Assembly: GCA_028753945.1 (NCBI GenBank)
Contig: JAPNXP010000002.1
Location: 10,230,001-10,294,000, forward strand
DNA from: Hexactinellida sp. DTS-2022
Lineage: Eukaryota > Porifera > Hexactinellida
Length of the DNA: 64,000 bases
Direction: 5' to 3'
The position numbers were made by a program, and so were the translations under genes. The notes beneath the pieces were generated by a model that did not search any database, was not told the origin of the DNA, and saw only the letters and a program-made list of their open reading frames with translations. Shown here piece by piece: positions 5,097-63,042 of the stretch (within the stretch, counting starts at the first letter, position 1; the number at the start of each line of letters is the position of its first letter).

Positions 5097-5856
5097 ATAT
5101 ATAAGTAGTGTTTAATGCAATGAACTGTAAAATTACTGTGTTTAGTTCATAAATATTTATTTTAGTTTCTGATATCGATTAGCCTCAAGCAATGTTGTCA
5201 TTAAGGTTCAGGTATTCTATTGAGCACTTCTACAAAAACTATTTACCTGATTCACTTCAAATTTTTTATGCGGATTTGTATCATCCTCCTATTTGCAAAA
5301 ATGCAATAAAAATTTTGATTCATGTACCAATGAAATTCTATAGATCCCAAATTTCGTATTTTTTTAGGATAGATTCATCAGCAATGATTTAATATACAAT
5401 GCTAAATACCGTGTTAATTTGTTAAACAGGTGGTTTTATACCCTGTCAATGTAGCGATTGTTGAAATATTCAATATTATATATAAAATTGTCTATTTCGT
5501 GAGGACTACTTTCCAAACGAGATTTTCCATTTTCAAATGCATACATCTAATAAACTATTTATTATTTCATAAATCGTTACATTGACAGGATGTATCAACA
5601 CGAGATCTATTCAAAACCGTTGAGTTTTTGATTCTACGAACTATATTGACAAAAAAATCATCCCTAGAATTACGAAAATGTTAGTTTTGGGATTCAGGCA
5701 TTTGAAAATTAGAATTTATATATTTATGAAAATTCCCCTTGTTGTTTTATGTATCAATTTGATGTGTAGTAAATTCATTCAGTTGATATGTACTAATGAA
5801 ATAAAGTGAGAATCTATGAATATTTCTTACCTTGAGGGGAAACTCTAGTTGCATGC

Positions 5857-5926
5857 ACCGCCTCCACCACCACCACCGCCACCGCCACCCCCGCCACCAC
5901 AACCACCCCCGCCTCACAGGTGGGGA
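5857..5926. repeat. CCACC/GGTGG-type simple repeat
   Basis: Short CCR-rich run directly after the stop codon of the small membrane-protein gene (minus strand reads GGTGGCGGTGG). Its G-rich strand could encode glycine-rich sequence or form a quadruplex. Confidence 0.8.
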
Positions 5927-5927
5927 T

Positions 5928-6234
5928 TTAACCCCTCCCGAACCTCCACCAGAGGACCCCTCCCGCCGCCCAAAGAAGTAATACCCCTATCCCGACAGCC
6001 ACCCCCCGTTTAATCGCCGCGATTTGCACGCGGCTGGAGGCGAGTCTCTCTATTTGGAGTAGAGTTCGTTCAGCTAAAATTGAAAATATGATAAAGTGTC
6101 TACAGTGAACTACGTATGCTCTATACAGTGAATTTACCTTTCTCGATTCTCCATCTCCAGTAGCCTGGCTCATCAAGGTCCACCCAAGAATTGAAGGCGG
6201 CCTCGTATTCCCGAATTTGGGCGGGATGTGTCAT
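5928..6234 (-). CDS. Small two-exon membrane-protein gene inside the Kolobok-like element
   Basis: I infer two exons on the minus strand. Exon 1 (6138-6234) starts at ATG and encodes MTHPAQIREYEAAF through GYWRWRIEK, ending at a GTAAAT donor. Exon 2 (5928-6073) follows an AATTTTAG acceptor, and the split codon joins in phase, giving 80 residues. The C-terminal half is KR followed by a strongly hydrophobic stretch (GVAVGIGVLLLWAAGGVLWW, residues 55-74) and a basic RFGRG tail, as in a tail-anchored or single-pass membrane protein. An AG just before the ATG could mean an upstream leader exon. I do not recognise the family. It lies in the same orientation as the transposase and about 590 bp downstream of it, within the element's inverted repeats, so it is likely an accessory gene. 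Its GC content is higher than its surroundings. cDNA evidence is lacking. Confidence 0.5.
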
Positions 6235-6539
6235 TGCTAATTATAGAAGTTTATATATTATATTTCATTATTGTCAAGATTAAAAAGTGACCTCCATTAT
6301 GCATAGGAAATCTCAAAAAATATAATTCAGAAAGCACCGAACTAATTTATTGAAATGTTCCTTGTTAGTAGGGCTACGTTTTTCGTTTCGTAAAACTAAA
6401 ACAGTAATTCAATGATATAGAGTTATTAATTTATCTTGTAAATATTGTTCCGAAATAGAATGATTATATGTAGATAGATATATAATATATTGAAAAATAA
6501 ACAGATCCATAACCATAGAGAACAGACAAATTATAAAAT

Positions 6540-6645
6540 AATGGTTTAGGACATACTTGTATATAAATAATGTATATAAATAATTATTTAGTGTATATAA
6601 ATAATGTATATAAATAAAGATTTAGTGTATATAAATAATATTTTC
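6540..6645. repeat. AT-rich tandem repeat
   Basis: GTATATAAATAAT units are repeated with short spacers (TTAGTGTATATAAATAA recurs twice). It sits between the two genes of the Kolobok-like element. Confidence 0.7.
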
Positions 6646-6825
6646 TTGATTATAAATATTGGTTTCTTGTATATATAATTAGGCTACAACAATGATTAGC
6701 TTTAGAACAAAAGCTTTACTTCACTACAGAAGCTTGAATTAGCTTTACAAAAAAAGATTGACCACAAATCTTGCAAGACACAAAATTTTTTAAATTTTAA
6801 CATACAAAACAAAAACATTACGTGA

Positions 6826-9558
6826 CTAGGAACAATTACATGAGGGGCATATCCACAAATCTTCTTTTTCCGCAGAAACAATTGGAACATTCACACTCCT
6901 CAAGCATTGGTTATGGTGCCAACCATCACATACATCGCAACACAACCATTCAACAGAAACATCAATATCTTTACTCAATCTATTACCCGCCTTGTTTAAA
7001 ATCCCACTTTCTTCACTCCCTCCACATATTTTACAATTCTCGTCCATATTCGTTGTCACCCTTGTTGCTTGGGAATAGGCCCCGCTCTTATAAGTCGCTC
7101 CACGCTTCCGGGAGCGCTTTGCTTGTTTTAGGGACCACCTACGCTTAGTATTTTCTACGCATTTTATACTGGTCACAATTCTCTCATTATCAAATTCTTT
7201 TACTAATTTATCTAATGAAATATAGCTCCTCAATCCTAAACTATCAATTATATTTTGAAATCCAGCTACCCCTTCGTTGAAACGAATTATTCCTAAAGTA
7301 CAACCTAACTGCATCAAACTCAAATCAATTGGCTTTGTTTTACTAATACACTCCCAAATCATCCCATGAAGGTTCTCGTTTAGATTTGAGGTGTTGCCTC
7401 CTTGAACCTTTTCCAAAAATGACACAGAAAAATATGGAGCTAGAATATCTAAAACACGATCCCTACAATCTAAACTTATGCACCTGGGATGTTTTGGCAT
7501 TGTATCACCTAATGCTACGGCTTTCTGAAAATTACAAAATGAATCTACACCCTTCTCACAATATTTATGCATATCATTACAATTATCATCATTAGCAGCT
7601 AAATGATATACAATTCCTAACAAAGCATCACGTAATTCAATTAGATCACCACCTATCCTACATTTTACAACAAAACCATATAAAGATGTGATCCTATCAA
7701 TTATGTTATCTGGCAAAAGATTTATTTCATTAGATACATCAAAAATATCGTCATCATTCCCCCAATTCTCTCTCCCTTTTTTTAAATCTCTAAGCGTAGA
7801 TGGCCTATACAACTCCCTCACTTTTTTTTTATTCGCTTCTGATTTACATTTACCCAATTCATGTTGCAACAGTGTTTTCTGAGAAGCAATGAACTCTTTT
7901 TGTTTTTCAACTAAATGAATTCTTATACGCTTTTGAACATGACTCAGACATTCCTCACGCCTTATAGAAATATTAAATTCCCCGTAAATATCTCTCTCAG
8001 CTAATATATTTATACTTTTGTCATCCCCATCCGCAATTACTGTAGAATAAATCAATTTTTGTTCAATGGACTTACGAAAAATAACCGGTGCTAATTTTGA
8101 TTCTAGCGCAACTGAACTGTATTTACCATATTCTCTCGCCTGACAACTCGATTCATGCTTGTCTTTCCAAATTTTATATTCCGCTAATTCAATTCGCTTC
8201 TCCCTCAGAGCTTGTTGCTTCTCAATACACAATTTGCAACTATTACATGCAATTTCATAGCTTAGAACTTTCCCAGATTCCACGGATATAGCACAAGCAA
8301 TGCAGTATCTAGAAAATCCCCCTCCAGATTTGCCCCCCCTTTTTTGATACGCTCCATCATATGAAACTGTTACCTCTAAAAATTCAGATTCGGGCGTATT
8401 GTGTTTTTCCCTCAGCTCTAAGGCTGCCCGGATACAGCTTGCTTGTGCTACACCCATGCAAACTTCAGATAAATGTGCCTGAGTCTTATAAAATGCCCTA
8501 TTAGCCAAAGTGCTCGGTATACCAATGAAAGTATTTATAAAATCCAGCCCAGATTTACCAATGCCAGCTAATCTACCAGCCAAAATTTGTAGAATGTTAT
8601 GGCCGAACTTTATTGTATTGTCCGTGTCGGAAGGGGTTCTATTCTGAGGGAGAGTAAAGAAAGGGGTCGCTACCAAACACTGATCACAGACAATATAATA
8701 ATGCAAGGCCAAACCATTAGTGTACGACGTTCGATAGAAAGTTAGCCGACCTTTACGACAAAACTTACATACTGAAACTTCCGCTAGTGCCCCCTCTAAA
8801 ATTCCTATATTCAAAAGTGCATTCCCTTCAACTCTACATAACTTTTGCTTTTCGCCCCTATTTTTTCCTACCACAAAAATCTCCATTTCATCAAGTTGAA
8901 GTTCTTCAACGATTCCTTTGGAGATTTTTGTTTGTGCAGTTGTAAGCTTAGGTTTACTTTCTGGCAACAGAATTTCTTGATGTTCCTGGCTATCCAAAAA
9001 TGGTATGGTCTCGTTTTCCTGGCTATCTAAAAATGGTATGGTCTCATTTTGGGTCTCCACAGAATTTCTGGGAACCTTAGAGGATAGCTCAAGAACATCA
9101 AGAGACTCCGTTACACTAGCTTGGCTGGAGGTTGTTGGAACGGGAGCGTACTCGTGAGCTAAGGCCACCTTGTCGCGCTTTATGTGTCCAGCGAATTTAC
9201 TAGGACGTTTTTTAGAGCCAACAAGAACTCTTTGTTTTTTTATTATGGGAGTGGTAGGCGCAGTAAATACAAATATACCTTGCTCTGTATCACCAAAATC
9301 GAAACTTTTCGGCACTTCAATATCATCCTCGGAACTGGAAGAGAGATCTTTCCGAGGAGGTCCCGGGTTCACCTCGACACCACCAATTATCAATTGTAAT
9401 ATAATTACTGCCGCCACTAGAAGTGTGGATATGCCCCACAAAATATCTAACAAAAAAGGAACAGTACAATTCATCTTTGGGGAGGTAACATGCGAAGACA
9501 GCTTCGCTCTCCCAGACCAAGTGCCAATTCGGCCTCTCCAGGCCTCAATAGAAATCAT
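6826..9558 (-). CDS. Kolobok/Mutator-like DDE transposase with 2A-like leader and PHD finger, 910 residues
   Basis: Catalyses cut-and-paste movement of the surrounding element. Residues 33-60 form a hydrophobic segment running into GGVEVNPGP (59-67), matching the C-terminal D/G-V-E-x-N-P-G-P core of 2A-like ribosome-skipping peptides. Skipping would release residues 1-66 from a transposase starting at Pro67. An acidic, serine-rich linker follows, with an 11-residue tandem duplication (NETIPFLDSQE, 171-192). CxxC pairs lie at 264/267 and 291/294. The catalytic core has YDGAYQKRG with Asp401, IADGDDKS (Asp510/512), ECLSHVQKR at 536-544, and NLNENLHGMIW with Glu728; these fit the Mutator-like DDE family that NCBI labels Mutator-like transposase domain. 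The C-terminus is a C4HC3 PHD-type finger: Cys842/845, Cys874/877, His882/Cys885, Cys904/907. The frame is uninterrupted, so the element may be recent. Target TTAA favours Kolobok over MULE. Confidence 0.9.
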   Translation of the reverse strand: MISIEAWRGRIGTWSGRAKLSSHVTSPKMNCTVPFLLDILWGISTLLVAAVIILQLIIGGVEVNPGPPRKDLSSSSEDDIEVPKSFDFGDTEQGIFVFTAPTTPIIKKQRVLVGSKKRPSKFAGHIKRDKVALAHEYAPVPTTSSQASVTESLDVLELSSKVPRNSVETQNETIPFLDSQENETIPFLDSQEHQEILLPESKPKLTTAQTKISKGIVEELQLDEMEIFVVGKNRGEKQKLCRVEGNALLNIGILEGALAEVSVCKFCRKGRLTFYRTSYTNGLALHYYIVCDQCLVATPFFTLPQNRTPSDTDNTIKFGHNILQILAGRLAGIGKSGLDFINTFIGIPSTLANRAFYKTQAHLSEVCMGVAQASCIRAALELREKHNTPESEFLEVTVSYDGAYQKRGGKSGGGFSRYCIACAISVESGKVLSYEIACNSCKLCIEKQQALREKRIELAEYKIWKDKHESSCQAREYGKYSSVALESKLAPVIFRKSIEQKLIYSTVIADGDDKSINILAERDIYGEFNISIRREECLSHVQKRIRIHLVEKQKEFIASQKTLLQHELGKCKSEANKKKVRELYRPSTLRDLKKGRENWGNDDDIFDVSNEINLLPDNIIDRITSLYGFVVKCRIGGDLIELRDALLGIVYHLAANDDNCNDMHKYCEKGVDSFCNFQKAVALGDTMPKHPRCISLDCRDRVLDILAPYFSVSFLEKVQGGNTSNLNENLHGMIWECISKTKPIDLSLMQLGCTLGIIRFNEGVAGFQNIIDSLGLRSYISLDKLVKEFDNERIVTSIKCVENTKRRWSLKQAKRSRKRGATYKSGAYSQATRVTTNMDENCKICGGSEESGILNKAGNRLSKDIDVSVEWLCCDVCDGWHHNQCLRSVNVPIVSAEKEDLWICPSCNCS

Positions 9559-10146
9559 AATTATTTATCTAAACAAGGAACAAATTGAATAGGAAATAAA
9601 ATAAAATAAAATAAATAAATAAATAAATACCGAGATTTGAAGTAAAGAATCGAGTTTGAAGTATTTGTAGTTGATAAGTTTTGAATGAATATAATTTAGA
9701 GACTTGAGGTATATATATGAAATAAATCAACCTGTGTGGTCTTGTTTGTTTACAAAAATAGAAGTGCCTATTGAGGCTGAATAATATATGAAGTCAAACG
9801 AAATATAATGGATTCAAATACTTGAGTATAAAATTCACTAGATGTACCCAATAATTTAGTACACAATAAATTATAAAAAAATAAACTAACAAAAAAAAAT
9901 AAAAAAAAATTATAAAAAAAAATATAAATATTTTTTTTCCAAAAAATTTCTGAAATATTTTTTTGAGACTGGATGGTACCAAACTGCGCCAAACTTGGCG
10001 AATATTTGAAATTTTTCTTAGAAATTTCTGCTGAGTACTCTAGTGTATCCATGCCATCCAAAAATGGTATAAAAGCTAAATTGACAAAGTTTCAAATTCT
10101 TTCGCAAATTTTGAATATTTAACAGGATACCTGAACCTTAACTTGA

Positions 10147-12389: not shown

Positions 12390-15300
12390 ATAGATGATCT
12401 ATATTACAAATAGTTCCTTTGAATGCCTACTGTTTCCCCTGTCTGTAAAACACGTTAAACTCCTCAAAATTATAGCTGTGGCCCTCTGGATAAAATTGCT
12501 GGAGCTTATCGATCCACTTCTGAACGATAGTATCACCCTGGCAGGCCACGAAATGCTATGTGGCTGGATACACGGCCAGGATTTGCCAGTAAAAATGTTT
12601 TGTTTCAGCAGACGAGATATCCTGTTGAAGTTTTCAGATCACTCAATTTACCACCAATGTGATTAGATTTGTCAACATAGATGTGTGCCGGGTTGTTGTG
12701 GACGCGGGGCTGCTTCCAGGTCAGTGGGTAGCAAATCTTTAAATAGATGCAGGGTATGACAGGGGTAGTGAACCGTGCGGAGATAAATTCGCGATTTTTT
12801 GCGCAGAGAAGACAGTGCTGCGGAGGGGCAATCACGGTGTAGGAGGCGGAGGGATAGGCCTGGGCCGCGTGGTAGGTGGGGCACCTCAGTATACATCTCG
12901 ATAACTGGACATTAAATTGTGCCGCGGAAAATCGACGTTGCGTCACGTTTATTCTTGGGAATCCCGGGGCTGCTGTTGGTGGTGGAGGAGGAGGAGGTGC
13001 TGCTGCTGGGCCACCCCGGGCACCCCTCGGTAATGGCTTGCGTAGGCTTTGAGGGACTCAGGGGGCGGCATAACCATGACGCCTTTCAGTTTGTATTGTC
13101 TTTTTAGCCGTTCGCGATGCCTGTGTGGCCCTGATAGGGGCCCACATCCATAGGTGTTATTGGTAGCCGTCTCTTTCGGGGTTGGGGCCCTATTCGGAAT
13201 GCTGGTTGCTCTGAAGCTAAGAGGAATGTTTCGGAAGAGGTCGGTGTTAGTCTAGTAGTCGTAGAGGAGGTCGCTCCGAGTAGCGGTAATTCAGACGCGC
13301 TGGGACAGGTGGATGATGAGGGCGACTAATTAGTTCTAGTTCCGCATTGGTCGGTGTCGGTGTCGGTATCGCTATCGGGTGGGCTATCTGAGTAGTCGTT
13401 CTTGTGCTTCCCCGCGTAGCACGGTAAGTGGTCTTATGTATCGGCACGAAGACGTGCCCGCGCACACGTTCCGGTACCGGCTGAAATTCTGGTTTGGTTA
13501 TGTTGGCGAGGCTTTTATATGTAGGTCTTTGAGTGCTATATTTGTATCGTAGGATGGGGACAGGTTTCTTTATTACCCATGGTTCTTTGTGGATTGGAAA
13601 ATAACAGATTTCGACAAGTGCTGGAATGATAGTACTTGCAGATTTACCTCGATCTAGGAGGGGCGCCAAATAGTTCTTTAAAAGGTGGGTGAGGGCATCA
13701 GCAGGATAAGTTGCAATCTTGGCCACTCTATGCGCTTTACCCATGTAAGCGTTCTCAATTAGATGCCTGGAAACCTGAAAAGAGGCTGCGTCGACTGGTA
13801 GAGAAGGACGGTGGGGTTGTACACGTGGCACCCAGCCTTTCCGTGCAGGAAGATATTCTGCATCCTGGGTACGATTATCCTCCGTGATGGTTACCGCATA
13901 GAGAGAGTGTAGTTGTGTGAGGTGGTCGGGGGTGAGAGGGAAATTGGCGGCCAAATCATCGAAGTAAATGATGAATTAGCCGCGGGGCGGTGGTTGGAAG
14001 GTTCGTAGGAGGTAACAAGTAACCAAACGGGCGAGTTCTGGGGCGAGAGAGAGGCCCATGGGAATGCCAACATTTCCCAAATGATAAACTTTTTGGCCGT
14101 TCGTGGCATAATTGAATTGCAAGAGGCCGCATAATAATTGTAAAGGAACTCTCTCGTCAGTGAAATAATAGACAAACGCGTCCAGACAGCGCGATGAAGT
14201 GTGGACGGATAGAATTGTACTAAATCCGCTGTATAGATCTGATTCGGGAGGTCATGCATATCCAGCCTGTCGATGGTTTCAAATATGTTTTGTGTGAGAT
14301 AGAATGCCTCCTTGAGAAGGGGGGTAATGTATCTACGTAGATAGTTGGAGCAGATTGCTGTTATGCTGTGGCTGTGGTTTACTATGGACCTAACCAGGGA
14401 GGTGAGTATCTGTAGGATGTCGTCACCTGCTGGGTGGGTGCGTGGGAAGAATAGGGTGTCGGTGTAGTACTAGTAGCAGTAGTCTTACTAGGGTCAGTGG
14501 AAGAGGTAGGCTCATGTGTGGCCGATGGTGTAATTAGTGTCGGCTGCGGCTGCTGGTGGGGAAATGGTGTGGTCTGCGCAAGCGGTGTCGGCTGGGGTAC
14601 CCAAAAGATGAATGGGGATTCTGTGGGTAGTAACATCTATTGGAAACTGTCCTTATGGGCTTTTATATTAAAATACAATTTTGGGCATCTATCATCACAG
14701 CCTGGTGGAATGATTACGGAGGAGGACTGCCGCATGAGCGCATGTTTTAATGTACTTAGATGTCCTAAGTACTGCTTGGGAGAGGCGGGTTGAGCAGAAT
14801 TTCTATGCAGATAATGCTCGTAGATGGTGCTCAGGAGGTGCGAGGGCAGAAGACATGCGCCGGGACCGTTATCTGCGGATAAGTATATTAAGTTCCCCTA
14901 GCGCAGACGTAAACGTAGTTCTGTCAGTAGGCGAGTGTGCTCACCCTGGATGGCTGCCTCGTTTGCGGGCAGAGCTATATGTTGGGTGGGCGTAACATCT
15001 GTGTGTGGTAGGTTTAATATGTGATGCCAGTCTGTTAGAAAGGGCGTCTTGGAGGGCTGTGCGGGGTCTACTCGAAATGATTGCCCGAAAGAAATAAGTG
15101 TTTGGAGGATACGTGCAGGATCCGTGAGCCATGGAGTTGAGTTGATTATGCGACGGGGACGAGAAGAAGGAGGAGGAGGAGGAGCACCTGGTGGAAGCAT
15201 AGGTGGTGGTGGTGGTGGGCGACGATTGGGTGGTAAACAAATTAGATAGACGGGTGGTAATTCGTTATACCACGTGAAGGGTAGTGAATCAGGTGGAGTA

Positions 15301-16735
15301 ATTTTTCTGGACATCGGATCTGCTGGGGTGTGCGTGGTGGACCACTTGAGCAGATAGTCGCTGCGGTGTCTTAAATTCCAATGCATTTCGGAACGTGCAG
15401 TAGGGGTGTCCGTATGTGTGCACATGTCGCAGCGGTGTGCTTCAAAGGTGTCCTGGCAGAGGGATAGACTTAGTCCCAGAAAGTGTGAAATGGAGTTGAG
15501 CCAGGAGTATCGCAGGCTATAAAATCGACGCGATCCTTTGGAGGAGGATGGGTAGGCTGAGGCTGGGCAGGAGGGATGATTGGGATGAGTGTGGTTTCAG
15601 CCGTGTCCAGTAGGTAACTATTGTGTCGTATCAGAGGACGGGTGATGATATTGGCCCCACAAGGAGGCTTGTTTGTGGAGCGGATGATTCGGGTAGGTGG
15701 TGCCCAGACAAGGGTGCACCAGTGGCAGTGGGCAGCTCCGGGCAAAGGGAGAGCAGTACGGAGGAGGGGGAGGAGGAGGAGGAGGAATAGTAGTTGTTTT
15801 AGCAGGAGAGGCATCGTGTTTGCTTCGGCCACAACTGTAGCAAACTTCATGCCTGAAGCAGGCCTCCTCGACAGCTATTGAGAGGCTGTGTAGATGAGTC
15901 TATATAGGCACGGAAAGTGGAAGCGGCTGTCCGGGGCAGGCTGACCCAGGGCGGTGTTCATACAAGCTGCTATGGGCATTATACGAGTGGCCAACTGGCT
16001 AAATGTCTCCCGGAGAGTATGGGGTAATGCTTTTTTATACGAGAGGATCGTCTGAAAACTAAGCTTGATATTTATTGTGAGAAGATGATTACGTTCAGTG
16101 GCCGAGAGGAGGGTTAGCGTGAGAGACATTTGATACAGGCGTATGCGGCGGGCTGCGGGTGGGGCTTAAGTTGGTGATTAATGGGGTGCCATCCGGGCCT
16201 GGAAAGACTCCTGCTCCATGTACTGCTGGTGGTGGTAGTGGTGATTCAAGTGAATGTCGAGGTTTTTTGTGGGACCGAAATTTTAAAGGGGTTGAGGTGG
16301 CCATCGGAAGCATCGGTAAAAAAAGATATCGGGGTCTGAAGGTTTAAACAAGGGGGACGAGTTGCAGCTAGAATAGGCAAAGGAATAGCTCCAGGAGGCG
16401 GAGGAGTAGCAGCAGGAGGGGCAGTAGGTAGAAGAGTCAGGCTGGCACTGTCTTCCTGAGACATAAGATGAGGTGAAGAGTCTTCAAAAAGAGATTCCTG
16501 GGTAGGCATTACAGAGAGTGTGCTTGCATCACAAATCGTCAGTTTAATAATTTTTCCTCAGTAAGATCCATCAGATTGTATGTCATGTTGAGCTGGTGTG
16601 GTGCTGGCGTAAGGTTGAGGGGTTGGGATCGAGATAGGATAGGGATATCGTCGAGAAGGGCGATAGCGTCGTTGAGTCGTCGGAATTAGAAGACGAATCC
16701 GAGTCGGATGAAGGGGTGGGAAACGGTGTCTCCAT
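12390..16735 (-). pseudogene. GC-rich broken retroelement gene with reverse transcriptase
   Basis: A block visibly richer in GC than its AT-rich surroundings, with coding-like segments in shifting minus-strand frames. It begins at an ATG near 16735 with a short acidic serine-rich head (METPFPTPSSDSDSSSNSDDS-like, residues 1-21). It continues through proline-rich stretches (including a PPPPPP run near 15210-15240), a possible metal-binding stretch with CHWC and, after a frameshift near 15480, CQDTFEAHRCDMC, then the reverse-transcriptase core listed separately. Coding-like sequence such as HFVACQGD and EEFNVFYRQGKQ continues to about 12400. Several frameshifts and stops make it non-functional as read. 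No LTRs, TIRs or endonuclease domain were identified, so the element's limits and class remain open. Confidence 0.6.
13247..14910 (-). pseudogene. Reverse transcriptase core, Penelope-like in style, with one frameshift and stops
   Basis: Copies RNA into DNA in retrotransposition. Reading 5' to 3' on the minus strand: SADNGPGACLLP near 14870; CPKLYFNIKAHKD near 14680 (compare P-K-h-Y-x-x-K-x-H-K in Penelope-like RTs); VRSIVNHSHSIT near 14385; motif A YTADLVQFYPS with the catalytic Asp at 14224-14226; motif B GIPMGLSLAPELARL near 14025-14070; motif C IIYFDDLAAN with YFDD at 13955-13966. Breaks are a stop after IKAHKDSFQ, a frameshift in the stretch 14400-14640, a frameshift just after FYPS (about 14205), and a TAA at 13976-13978 directly before motif C. 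The 235-residue frame 13247-13954 continues the thumb and an unrecognised C-terminal region. Order and wording of motifs favour a Penelope-like RT, but no GIY-YIG nuclease is visible, so other RT classes are possible. Confidence 0.68.
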
Positions 16736-16957
16736 AAAATCTAAGCGTGATAATGATTAGATGAGTGTGATGCTTTGACGCAACCATGTGAAAAAATTGT
16801 ATCCAGAACAAAGGAAATGTTTGAGAATGTATGGAAAACATCGAGGCAAATAAATGTACAAATGAATCAGTAAGTTAATAAATAAATATATGACAAAGTA
16901 TTTAAATTTTGAATTTCTTAGAGACAGAAAATATGGATAATGCCATGGTAGTAGAAG

Positions 16958-17100
<143 letters not shown>

Positions 17101-17908: not shown

Positions 17909-18110
17909 TTAAGGTTCAGGTATACTCTAGAAATTTCTAAAATCTAGATAAAATCCCAATTATTGTCTTTTTCTATTTTATTGCATTTTTGGATTGTATT
18001 GATACCAATGTGTACTCTCACGAGATTTCTAAGAAAAATTCCTATTAATTTACCAGTTTGACACACTTTGGTCACCTCAATCTAGGATTAAAAGATTCAA
18101 AAGATTTTTT

Positions 18111-20057
18111 AAGGATCGACCCACACCTCAATCAACAATGTTATATTACTTATTCCTAATTATATCAGTGAAAGCCTACTCTATACTGCTTACAAATCCA
18201 CCGTCTAAATTGATTTCGAATAATATTCGCTCGAGTGATTGAGTATAGTTCCATATTACGTAATATTAAATTCATATACCTGACTGAAAATATATGAGGC
18301 ACTCTCACAAAGTAACCACACTAGTTCAAGTGTTGATTAAGCTTTATTTATTCAATACATATACTAGTGTAATACCTTCACCTTTAATATTCAGCAATTT
18401 CATGCTTACGAGAAAATTTGTAGTCAGTAAAGTGAAACCAAGGCAATGATTAATGATTATTTTGCATTTTTTTGATTCGAATTCTTATAACACTTCTTTT
18501 GAAGTATTTGAAGCCTTGTTTTTAGGTGAAGGTTGAGTAACAATACTATCTAAATAATGCATTTTTCTCAGATCATCAAAAACTCATTAGAATTTTTCTG
18601 GAGACGTGTACATGTTGGAGAGTCTTTGCGACTCGAAATAATTTCTTAAATTTGTACATTTGTATTACGATTCTTTATTTCCAGTTCCATATCTCCTAAA
18701 GTATTTAATATTTCTGGATTAAATTTCCAGGGAATATACACAACATATAGACCTCTCGAAATAAGCAATAATATACACTTAAGGATGCTTGCCGCCAAAA
18801 GTGTATTAGCCCTATGGGTAGTTTTACCATTATTTTGGATATTGAGCTGAAATTCTCCATTATTGCCTGTAATAGCCCAACTAAGCATATAATCATGACT
18901 TTTGAACTTTTTATGAGCAATTTTCAGAATTCCATCATATTACGTGGCGGATGGCTTCCTATCTCCGTAATACTAAATATTGTATAGGCGTAGAATATTA
19001 TCATAAAAACTGTCAGAGCTCAAGTTCTAAAATTTGCTGAGTATATACAGCACTACTATAGGAAGAAAATTGACCATTTTCAGACTGATCCATTCGCAAA
19101 TATTTATTTTGGATATAAATACCCAAAACATGCGGACATTAGTTCGAAAAGATCGATTTTTAGCCAATTTTTCTTGGACATGTCACGCAATATAAGTTCG
19201 TTTTGTTCAATCAAGGTCAAATATATAGTAACCGTTATATACTAACATGTGCCAAATTTTTGGCGACTTTTGATATGTATTTTATAAAAAACAATTGGTC
19301 AAAGGTCAGAAATCTCTGTTTTGAGTTATTAAGGGTCAAAGTTTTTCCGAATAAAACACTCTCTAACTAAGATATTACAAGGTGTTTCATCCCTGTATGG
19401 AAGGAGTATGTAAGCTTTTATTCGTACGATAAGCTTTACATGTATTCAGTCATTGTTCGTAACTAAATGACTTGATATATATCCATTTATGCAAGTCCAC
19501 TTTATTTTGGGACACCAGCTGGAAAAGGAATTTGATGTAATTGGCTGTGAGAATCGTTCGAAATTCAACAGAAAGTTCATTCAAGCAATATTTTGAACTA
19601 CTATGTATATGCACCATGTATATGTGTGGAATCTTTCAATTGAATTGCTGTATATCCCAGAATAAATAAAATGATAGTCACCATAGAGATTCGAATCCAT
19701 AACCTCAAATATACATTCTCCATATGCTTTCCACCGTGCCGTTGATACATATTAGTAATATATGAACGATATTAGTATCAAAATGCACATAAATAACCAT
19801 CAATGGTGATAAATGTGAGGAATGTTCACATAATCACCGATGTCATCAAAAATGACGTCACTAATAATGCACTTTTGAGCAAAAATATTCTAGATTTTTG
19901 AAAATTTGCACTTCCAACAGAATTCCGGGTTATTTTTGCATGTTATTTCACAATAATCGACACTTAAATTTTTGAAGTTAAATACCGGATAATTTGGCGG
20001 CAAGCATCCTTAATCAGTTTCCCAGAAACGCCCTGTTTGAGGTGTGGGTCGAGCCTT
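18111..20057. mobile_element. TIR element AAGGCTCGACCCACACC, copy A
   Basis: Left end AAGGATCGACCCACACC and right end GGTGTGGGTCGAGCCTT are inverted. A homologous copy lies at 55912-57226 and shares internal phrases such as AATATTCGCTCGAGTGATT. Copy A is interrupted by the TTAA element 18783-20009. No transposase is visible. Confidence 0.78.
18783..20009. mobile_element. 1,227-bp TTAA-flanked TIR element
   Basis: Ends GGATGCTTGCCGCCAAA and TTTGGCGGCAAGCATCC are 17-bp perfect inverted repeats flanked by TTAA (18779-18782, 20010-20013). Copy B of the host repeat at 57165-57185 reads straight through this point (GCAATAATATACATTTAATC), an empty site that proves the insertion. No coding frame. 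Confidence 0.9.
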
Positions 20058-20559
20058 AAATATCCTCTATCTCAAAACTAACATTTTCACATTTGTGTAA
20101 ATAAGAAAAGATTTCAGTTTTGAACGTAGAATCAAAATCTCAACGGTTTCGGATAGATCTCGTCTAGATACATCCTGTATCGTTTGCGATTTATTCATTT
20201 AGAAATAGTTACAGAGCTTTGCGGATTTTGGATAGAGAAATTTCGATTAAAAACTTGACATCACGTAATAATCAAGAAAATTAAAAAAATATCAAATTTG
20301 AACAATCCCAGACGATACAGGATAAACAAGATATAGATAAACGCATTAAATCAGCATTAATTATTGTAAGGTTCATCAATACTAAAAATCTCTTACACAA
20401 ATTGGTAAAATTTGAAAACCCAAAATTTTACTGTTACTTGTCATTGAAATATTATTGCATTTTTGCAAATAGAAGGAATATTCAAATCCGCTGTAAAGAT
20501 CTCTAGTAAATGGGGTAAATTGTTTTGTAGGAGTGCTCTAGAGTATACCTGAACCTTAA

Positions 20560-51170: not shown

Positions 51171-52374
51171 TATATACCCACAATTTAACTAGCACGACGA
51201 ACAGGGAGAGAGGGAGACTGTCCACTTAGTCTATTGCCTGTCCTAGTCCACTTTGTTTTGAATCTTATACTGCATATTAATCTAATATAAACCCACTATT
51301 TAATTAGCACGACGAACAGGGAGAGAGGGAGACTCCACTTACTCTATTACCTGTCCTAGTCCACTTTAGTTTGACTCTAATTATGATTATTTATCTAATA
51401 TATACCCACAATTTAACTAGCACGACGAACAGGGAGAGAGGGAGTTTGTCGACTTAGTCTATTGCCTGTCCTAGTCCACTTTGGTTTGACTCTAAATATG
51501 ATTATTTATCTAATATATACCCACAATTTAACTAGCACGACAAACAGGGAGAGAGGGAGTTTGTCGACTTAGTCTATTGCCTGTTCTAGTCCACTTTGGT
51601 TTGAAACTAAATATGATTATTTATCTAATATATACCCACAATTTAACTAGCACGACTAACATGGAGAGAGGGAGACTGTCCACTTAGTATCTTGCCTGTC
51701 CTAGTCCACTTTGTTTTGAATATAATACTGCATATTAATCTAATATAAACCCACTATTTAATTAGCACGACGAACAGGGAGAGAGGGAGACTCCACTTAC
51801 TCTATTTCCTGTCCTAGTCCACTTTAGTTTGACTCTAATTATGATTATTTATCTAATATAAACCCACAATTTAACTAGTACGACGAACAGGGAGTGAGGG
51901 AGACAGTCCACTTAGTCTATTGCCTGTCCTAGTCCACTTTGTTTGAATCTAATACTGCATATTTGTCGAATATAAACACAGGATTTATCTAGCACTTACG
52001 GACAGGGAGAGAGGGAGACTGTCCACTTAGTATATTGCCTGTCCTAGTACACATTGGTTTGACTCTAATTATGTTTATTTATCTAATATATACCCAAAAT
52101 TTAACTAGCACGACGAACAGGGAGAGTGGGAGACTGTCCTCTTAGTATATTGCCTGTCAAGTCCACTTTGTTTTGAATCTAATACTGCATATATGTCGAA
52201 TATAAACACACGATTTAATTAGCACGACGAACAGGGAGAGAGGGAGACTGTCCACTTAGTATATTGCTTATCGTGCCCCACTTTGGTTTGAATCTAATAC
52301 TGCATATATGTCTAATATAAACCCACAATTTAACTATCACGACGAACAAGGAGAGAGGGAGACTCTCCACTTAA

Positions 52375-61676: not shown

Positions 61677-63042
61677 TTAACAATCGTCATCAATGACAAT
61701 TTGATTTACTTTATCTTGTTCAGGGTCTGGTTGGTGGGAGTTTACAAGATTGGTTAGAACATCATTGTCAATACTACTCACTTCTTCAAGTTTTTGTAAG
61801 AGTTCGTCACGCAAAGGGAAAAGGACTTCATCTTTATGAATTACCTTGATCCTATCATTTTCTAAATTGTCAATTGCATTTGAAGTTGCACAGAATTTAA
61901 ATGATTCTGTAATGAGATTAGTAGGTATAAGTTCCCAAACTTTTTTTACCCACAAGGCCAATAAATGTTTAGTAGGAGCCTTCATGTTACCACCTCGTGT
62001 GTACTCTTTTTCACCTTCCCTCATCCACTGTTCATATTGCTCGCGATAAGCAGCTTTAAATGGCTTATTCCATGATACATCTGGTGCTTGAATAAGGCCT
62101 GTGCAGCCTCCAGGGATAACTGCCATGTCAGTTTGCTTCAGGGCTAACTCTTTTTTTGTACAATCCTGGATGTGGCACCTATAACTGTCCCATACATGTA
62201 TTTTTCGCCCAAATGATAATCCTCCCCATACAGTTTGTAACCATTCATGAGTCAACTTTTCATTCATCCATCCATTTTGACTCATTACGCACACAATACC
62301 GCCCAATCCATCAAGCACACGATCACGACGTTTGCCCTTGGAAACAAGAAACGGTGGTAATTTGATGCCATTAGCTTTAGCAGCAAGACACACTGTGAAG
62401 CGGGACTTCTCGTGTCCGGTTGTCTTGATTGGGATAGATTTCATTCCCACGAAATCGACTGTGGTTTCGGCAGGATTGTCAAGCCAAACAGGAGTCTCAT
62501 CCATGGCGCCGATTTGCGATAGTTCGTATCGTTGACGCAGAATAAGCGAGCGCACAAATATGATGAAATTCATCAACTATGGGATGACTGTTTCGGGAAC
62601 CTTCTGTCCAACTGTAGTGCGACGTCTAAGGGTGATTTTGTGTCTAACGAAAAAGTTTCGCAACCAACCACCACTAGCAATGAATGAATCTTCGTCTCCA
62701 GTGAAAAATTATTTAGCCTTTAACTGTACCATTTTGGCGTAACTCTTGGTCTCTGGCTTCTCAAATCCTCCATCCACGAATACAGACTTTCTTCTACCGT
62801 CTCTAATAGGGGCGGACGACCACCACCATCTAGCTTGCAACGCTTTGCATTTTGGGCACCACAAACGTCTTTCAGCTTGTCCTGTTGCTTACACCACTCT
62901 CGAATCCGTTTGCTGACAACACCATAAAATCGAGCTGTTTCTTCCTTACTGTTTCCAGCTTTAACAAAACGAACAGCTTTAATCTTGAATTCCAGTGAGT
63001 ACTATGAAGCTTTCGTTTACCAGTTGTCGGTTCTTGTGCCAT
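61677..63042 (-). pseudogene. Tigger/pogo transposase, broken in the DNA-binding half
   Basis: Begins MAQEPTTGKRKLHS at 63042. The helix-turn-helix region (EFKIKAVRFVKAGN, TARFYGVVSKRIREWCKQQ, then CKLDGGGRPPL) and a CENP-B-like second HTH (SGGWLRNFFVRHKITLRRR, then TTVGQKVPETVIP) are recognisable. They are split by single-base losses near 63000 and 62735 and by stops at 62709-62711 and 62577-62579. The following 299-codon frame (61677-62576) is open and holds the DDE domain: MDETPVWLD (Asp26), KTTGHEKSRFTVCLAA, VWDSYRCH (Asp130) and LIQAPDVSWNKPFK (Asp166), the D-D-D pattern of pogo. An acidic tail ends in DDDC. Function as a transposase is unlikely without the N-terminal half. Confidence 0.88.

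Follow-up and report, generated by a model that had tools for sequence, protein, structure and literature searches.

The transposase of a Kolobok-type DNA transposon in Hexactinellida sp. DTS-2022 carries an N-terminal leader that, judged from its sequence, is most likely a working StopGo/2A peptide, which would free a transposase that starts at Pro67. The transposon lies in a window of 64,000 nucleotides (the whole stretch of DNA that was analysed; contig JAPNXP010000002.1, positions 10,230,001 to 10,294,000). We think it reasonably probable that the leader serves two functions at once, as a hydrophobic membrane signal and as a StopGo (2A) peptide, where skipping would yield a nuclear Pro67 transposase and failure to skip a membrane fusion. 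We infer skipping and targeting from the features of the DNA, and favour this reading because: i) the core of the motif fits the consensus exactly; ii) it ends the most hydrophobic stretch of the protein; iii) its chance expectation within the open reading frame (ORF) is 6e-6; iv) the frame of the leader looks coding; and v) a long intact transposase sits in an element bounded by TTAA and terminal inverted repeats (TIRs).

The transposase ORF comprises 910 codons on the minus strand (6826-9558) and was identified from the ORF list and by Pfam, with residues 267-581 (7816-8760) matching PF20700 (Mutator-like transposase; E 1.5e-36). The sequence GGVEVNPGP, which the initial annotation had reported at residues 59-67, was found there in the ORF translation; its place in the ORF stands, and the start that had been given for the site, 9357, is one base off, the NPGP codons being 9358-9369. 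The StopGo/2A core, GVEVNPGP, comprises residues 60-67 (9358-9381, minus strand) with a predicted break between Gly66 and Pro67, and agrees at every position with (D/G/C/N)(V/I)ExNPGP, a consensus that comes from a viral survey, not from animal genes (PMC12846837). Under an independence model based on residue frequencies, the expected number of such cores is 6e-6 for the ORF and 3e-4 for the six frames of the window. The six frames of the window contained seven NPG matches and NPGP only once, in the transposase leader.

The first position of the core (p12) is Gly, for which reason its activity had been called uncertain. This reason for doubt is largely removed by the viral survey and by duck hepatitis A virus 1, which has an active '-GxExNPGP-' skipping site (PMC6249498). 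The survey (Li and others, 2026; PMC12846837) covered nearly 10,000 viral sites and widened the core to the form given above; it reports 2,465 viral octapeptides that equal the Asp consensus or are one position off, 908 of them exact and 1,207 with Gly at p12. We therefore rejected the proposition that activity is improbable with Gly at p12, Gly being about as common as Asp in the viral sites. The upstream motifs described in the same survey include L-rich ones and one, motif 5, that has (A/G/S)G as its end at p12. The transposase has LQLIIG and then G at p12, which may fit motif 5 as worded. At p15 the transposase has Val, whereas the viral Gly-type/motif 5 sites prefer Pro. Representatives of four motifs were assayed in the survey, motif 5 not among them and one (motif 6) L-rich, and skipped at about 92.7% to almost 100%; upstream mutants of these four were mostly inactive, and chimeras were often inactive (PMC12846837). 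Against a skipping leader count, among other points, the Val at p15, a fitting motif class outside the four assayed, a consensus from a viral survey only and the single known copy.

It is quite unlikely, in our assessment, that the motif is inactive, i.e. a chance or decayed NPGP in the hydrophobic N-terminal segment of a one-chain protein. Such a reading would be helped by the single copy from which the motif is known here, by the flanking context, which decides 2A activity (PMC12846837), and by the fact that GVEVNPGP is also found in unrelated proteins: a scan of 2.9 million viral contigs gave 5 coding stretches, of which 3 belong to ORFs that closely resemble one another, and by eye a hydrophobic leader before GVEVNPGP is absent in all 5. 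It is opposed by the low expectation in the ORF, by the location of the core at the very end of the leader and by the retention of all consensus positions in an otherwise intact ORF; a permanent signal anchor on a nuclear enzyme would also be hard to explain.

The hydropathy profile agrees in substance with the initial annotation, according to which hydrophobic residues 33-60 lead into the motif. The best 19-residue Kyte-Doolittle window of the transposase is 43-61 (mean 2.53), versus 1.34 for the best window that starts at residue 72 or later. By itself the hydrophobic stretch is only mildly unusual, because 2.53 was reached somewhere in 323 of 20,000 shuffles of the protein; the notable point is its position directly before the core, as 2A-like signal sequences require. 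The only Met codons ahead of the core are 1 and 29, the next being Met225, and a stop codon in the same frame precedes Met1 by 9 nt. The leader is therefore 66 residues long from Met1 (at 9558), or 38 residues (Met29-Gly66; 9361-9474, minus strand) if translation starts at Met29, and the sequence is compatible with either. The codon use of residues 1-67 is coding-like (score 0.081, versus 0.060 for residues 68-150 and 0.044 for 150-229), and the five other frames of this segment have negative scores; residues 29-67 alone score 0.092 in frame, with one other frame slightly positive (0.038).

Splice-acceptor-like sites were found by a simple score at -327, -10 and +112 relative to Met1. Together with the match of the transposase domain, which begins only at residue 267, these would accommodate a main product that lacks the leader, either by a start at Met225 or by an upstream exon joined beyond the core. 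We consider this very improbable: the same simple score gave no acceptor-like site from nt 113, within the leader, up to nt 820, beyond Met225, codon use is coding-like over residues 1-229, and nothing would keep the frame open over residues 67-225. If the acceptor-like site at nt 112 (codon 38) were used, residues 1-38 could be replaced and 21 residues would be left before the core, which counts against the skipping leader as proposed. The putative nuclear localization signal (NLS) of the protein is a pattern match only (the basic cluster KKRPSK at residues 116-121).

An N-terminal leader of this kind has a known counterpart in the sea-urchin NLR proteins, and the comparison with these, made in the initial annotation, is apt, the anatomy being the same in kind: in both cases the leader is N-terminal, short and hydrophobic and ends in a 2A core, an arrangement in which skipping and membrane targeting would compete (PMC4981915). 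For one such sea-urchin leader, skipping in vitro was about 80%, and a reporter that carries this leader goes mainly to the Golgi once skipping is blocked (Roulston 2016; PMC4981915). The systems differ in that the defining core starts with Asp in the sea urchin and with Gly here, and in that the leader belongs to an immune receptor there and to a DNA transposase here; activity was demonstrated for the sea-urchin leaders, whereas the sponge leader is known from its sequence alone.

The remainder of the transposase has the organisation of a DDE enzyme. By pattern, the triad consists of D401, DGD at 510-512 and E728, the probable catalytic Glu in NLNENLHGMIW (residues 725-735; 7354-7386), with the CxxH signature CLSH (537-540; 7939-7950) between the second D and the E. 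A CCHC zinc-finger pattern (441-472; 8143-8238) follows the first catalytic Asp, and a C/H cluster (660-675; 7534-7581) separates CxxH from the last Glu. The AlphaFold model made from the single sequence of residues 240-780 has a mean pLDDT of 34.1 and does not confirm the DDE pattern. The C terminus contains a PHD finger (842-907; 6838-7035), identified by Pfam (E 9.9e-5; 22.7 bits, just below the curated cut-off of 24), by the cysteine/histidine pattern and by a PDB search, in which 23 distinct sequences matched at E <= 1, all inside residues 831-909 and several named PHD finger. In a charged region of the protein the sequence NETIPFLDSQ is tandemly duplicated (residues 171-180 and 182-191; 8986-9048, minus strand).

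The ends of the element were sought among the 950 TTAA pairs around the ORF. The best pair was a TTAA-flanked inverted repeat at 5201-5221/10121-10141 with 16 matches in 20 positions (next best 12), which delimits an element of 5201-10141, TTAA at each end included, in minus orientation. The left TIR is GGTTCAGGTATTCTATT (5205-5221, plus strand) and the right one GGTTCAGGTATCCTGTT on the minus strand (10121-10137). In their account of the superfamily, Kojima and Bao list as Kolobok marks TTAA duplications, 5'-RR/YY-3' ends, C/DxxH and zinc fingers, the latter located between CxxH and E and, as CCHC, after the first D in some lineages (PMC9587614). All of these marks are present by pattern: TTAA and TIRs, termini 5'-GG...CC-3', which follow the 5'-RR/YY-3' rule, DDE, CLSH and both zinc-finger patterns. 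The identification of the element as Kolobok-type, already proposed in the initial annotation, is supported by these ends and signature patterns and by a second element with the same ends, described below. A piggyBac identity was considered and rejected in view of the PF20700 domain and of the GG at the ends, which is a Kolobok trait (PMC9587614).

With the Kolobok superfamily as described (PMC9587614, PMC6004289) the element shares the TTAA target, the 5'-RR..YY-3' ends and the DDE core with CxxH and zinc-finger patterns. It differs from it by the C-terminal PHD finger, the hydrophobic 2A-like leader, a second candidate gene without Pfam match, and the apparent lack of a THAP domain, for which Pfam gave no match in the transposase at E <= 1; this domain is usual, not obligatory, in Kolobok transposases (PMC6004289). 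The terms NPGP, PHD, THAP and skipping do not occur in the main text of PMC9587614.

The candidate second gene lies inside the transposon, downstream of the transposase ORF and on the same strand (5928-6234, minus strand). It would encode 80 residues in two exons (6138-6234 and 5928-6073) separated by a 64-nt GT-AG intron; the encoded C terminus is hydrophobic, the best 19-residue window having a mean of 2.0. The predicted protein had no Pfam match at E <= 1, and in the viral contigs 14 stretches matched a pattern, none of which was confirmed as a relative. Its product, predicted from one copy, may be an accessory protein. The hydrophobic C terminus suggests that membrane peptides may matter to the element, which would agree with near-complete skipping, in which the leader would be thrown away or act by itself as a small membrane peptide and the unskipped form would have no role. 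The four assayed viral motifs, with their skipping of about 92.7% to almost 100% and the L-rich motif 6 among them, point the same way (PMC12846837). On the other hand, the second gene lacks a Pfam match and a viral-contig relative, and we regard this alternative to a leader with both functions as unlikely. To our knowledge, no use has been described for a small membrane peptide in a DNA transposon.

A second element, likewise flanked by TTAA and carrying the same TIR (17909-20559; 2,651 bp), is located about 8 kb from the first and has a perfect inverted repeat of 23 bp, including TTAA. The 15-mer end of the first element, together with its TTAA, recurs exactly and inverted at 17909-17923 and 20545-20559; when up to 3 mismatches are allowed the 15-mer has seven matches in the window versus 3.7 expected, so that information comes only from the four exact matches. 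Over 442 and 164 bp, the ends of the second element share 69-70% identity with those of the first. Searches for a transposase in it were negative: tblastn at E <= 1 finds only the 910-aa ORF itself in the window, and the longest stop-to-stop frame listed for the second element has 97 codons. It is probably a nonautonomous relative of the transposase-bearing element.

Other features of the window include: a large satellite array (25822-50624 and 51171-52373) built of units of about 115 bp, with higher-order repeats of about 230 and 345 bp, a GTA microsatellite of about 51 units (16948-17098), an ORF for a DDE_1 transposase (61677-62576, minus strand; PF03184, E 3.6e-18), which we take to be pogo/Tigger-like, and a G+C-rich, strongly skewed block (12605-15874) whose minus strand has five stop-to-stop ORFs of 134-242 codons, of which the single one examined (13247-13954) had no Pfam match.

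Relatives of the transposase were searched for in collections of prokaryotes and viruses, which say nothing on animal relatives. The whole transposase matched 7 stretches of the viral contigs by pattern and the core query 4, none of them confirmed; residues 240-910 similarly matched 7 stretches of the genome contigs, none confirmed, and tblastn gave no match in phages or plasmids. The pattern D-G-x-W-Q-K-R-G was found at 2 viral and 33 genome loci. None of the 40 loci, i.e. these 35 and the 5 with GVEVNPGP, matched the transposase in tblastn at E <= 1; a looser tblastn (E <= 10) on two loci gave three short matches of 12-25 residues, which were taken as noise.

For the skipping leader the following course of events can be envisaged. 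The nascent chain ending in ...LQLIIGGVEVNPG would, within the exit tunnel, prevent formation of the bond between Gly66 and Pro67; the leader (66 or 38 residues) would be released, and the ribosome would continue to make the transposase from Pro67. With its NLS-like cluster KKRPSK, its DDE core and its PHD finger, this product would be bound for the nucleus. Without skipping, the leader would send the fusion to the ER membrane, away from the DNA. The balance between the skipped and unskipped forms could set the dose of nuclear transposase, which is the least certain step. Skipping might, as a tentative and rather doubtful extension of the scheme, divide the transposase between membrane and nucleus with its efficiency acting as a throttle on transposition, and the second protein with its hydrophobic tail may act at the same membrane.

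2A sequences are said to have been described in APE-type non-LTR retrotransposons by Odon in 2013, and in some of these elements a PHD-like finger reportedly adjoins the 2A. Like the sponge transposon, these are animal mobile elements with a 2A-like site; unlike it they are class I elements with a reverse transcriptase, whereas the sponge element is a cut-and-paste DDE transposon and has its PHD finger at the opposite end of the protein from the 2A-like core. The non-viral 2A-like sites that a 2024 review names are those of non-LTR retrotransposons and of NLR proteins only (PMC11512398). The combination of Kolobok, 2A-like and transposase gave no literature match, and a 2A-like site on a natural DNA transposase was found in none of the literature matches listed, PMC5009743 and PMC12282059 among them, a coverage that excludes Odon 2013 and Rao 2025.

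The transposase presents a candidate Gly-type 2A at the end of a hydrophobic leader, from a class outside those assayed in the viral survey (PMC12846837). If the 2A acts as proposed, it would point to a simple means by which a transposon limits its own enzyme in the nucleus, and the natural use of StopGo would extend to the other class of mobile element.
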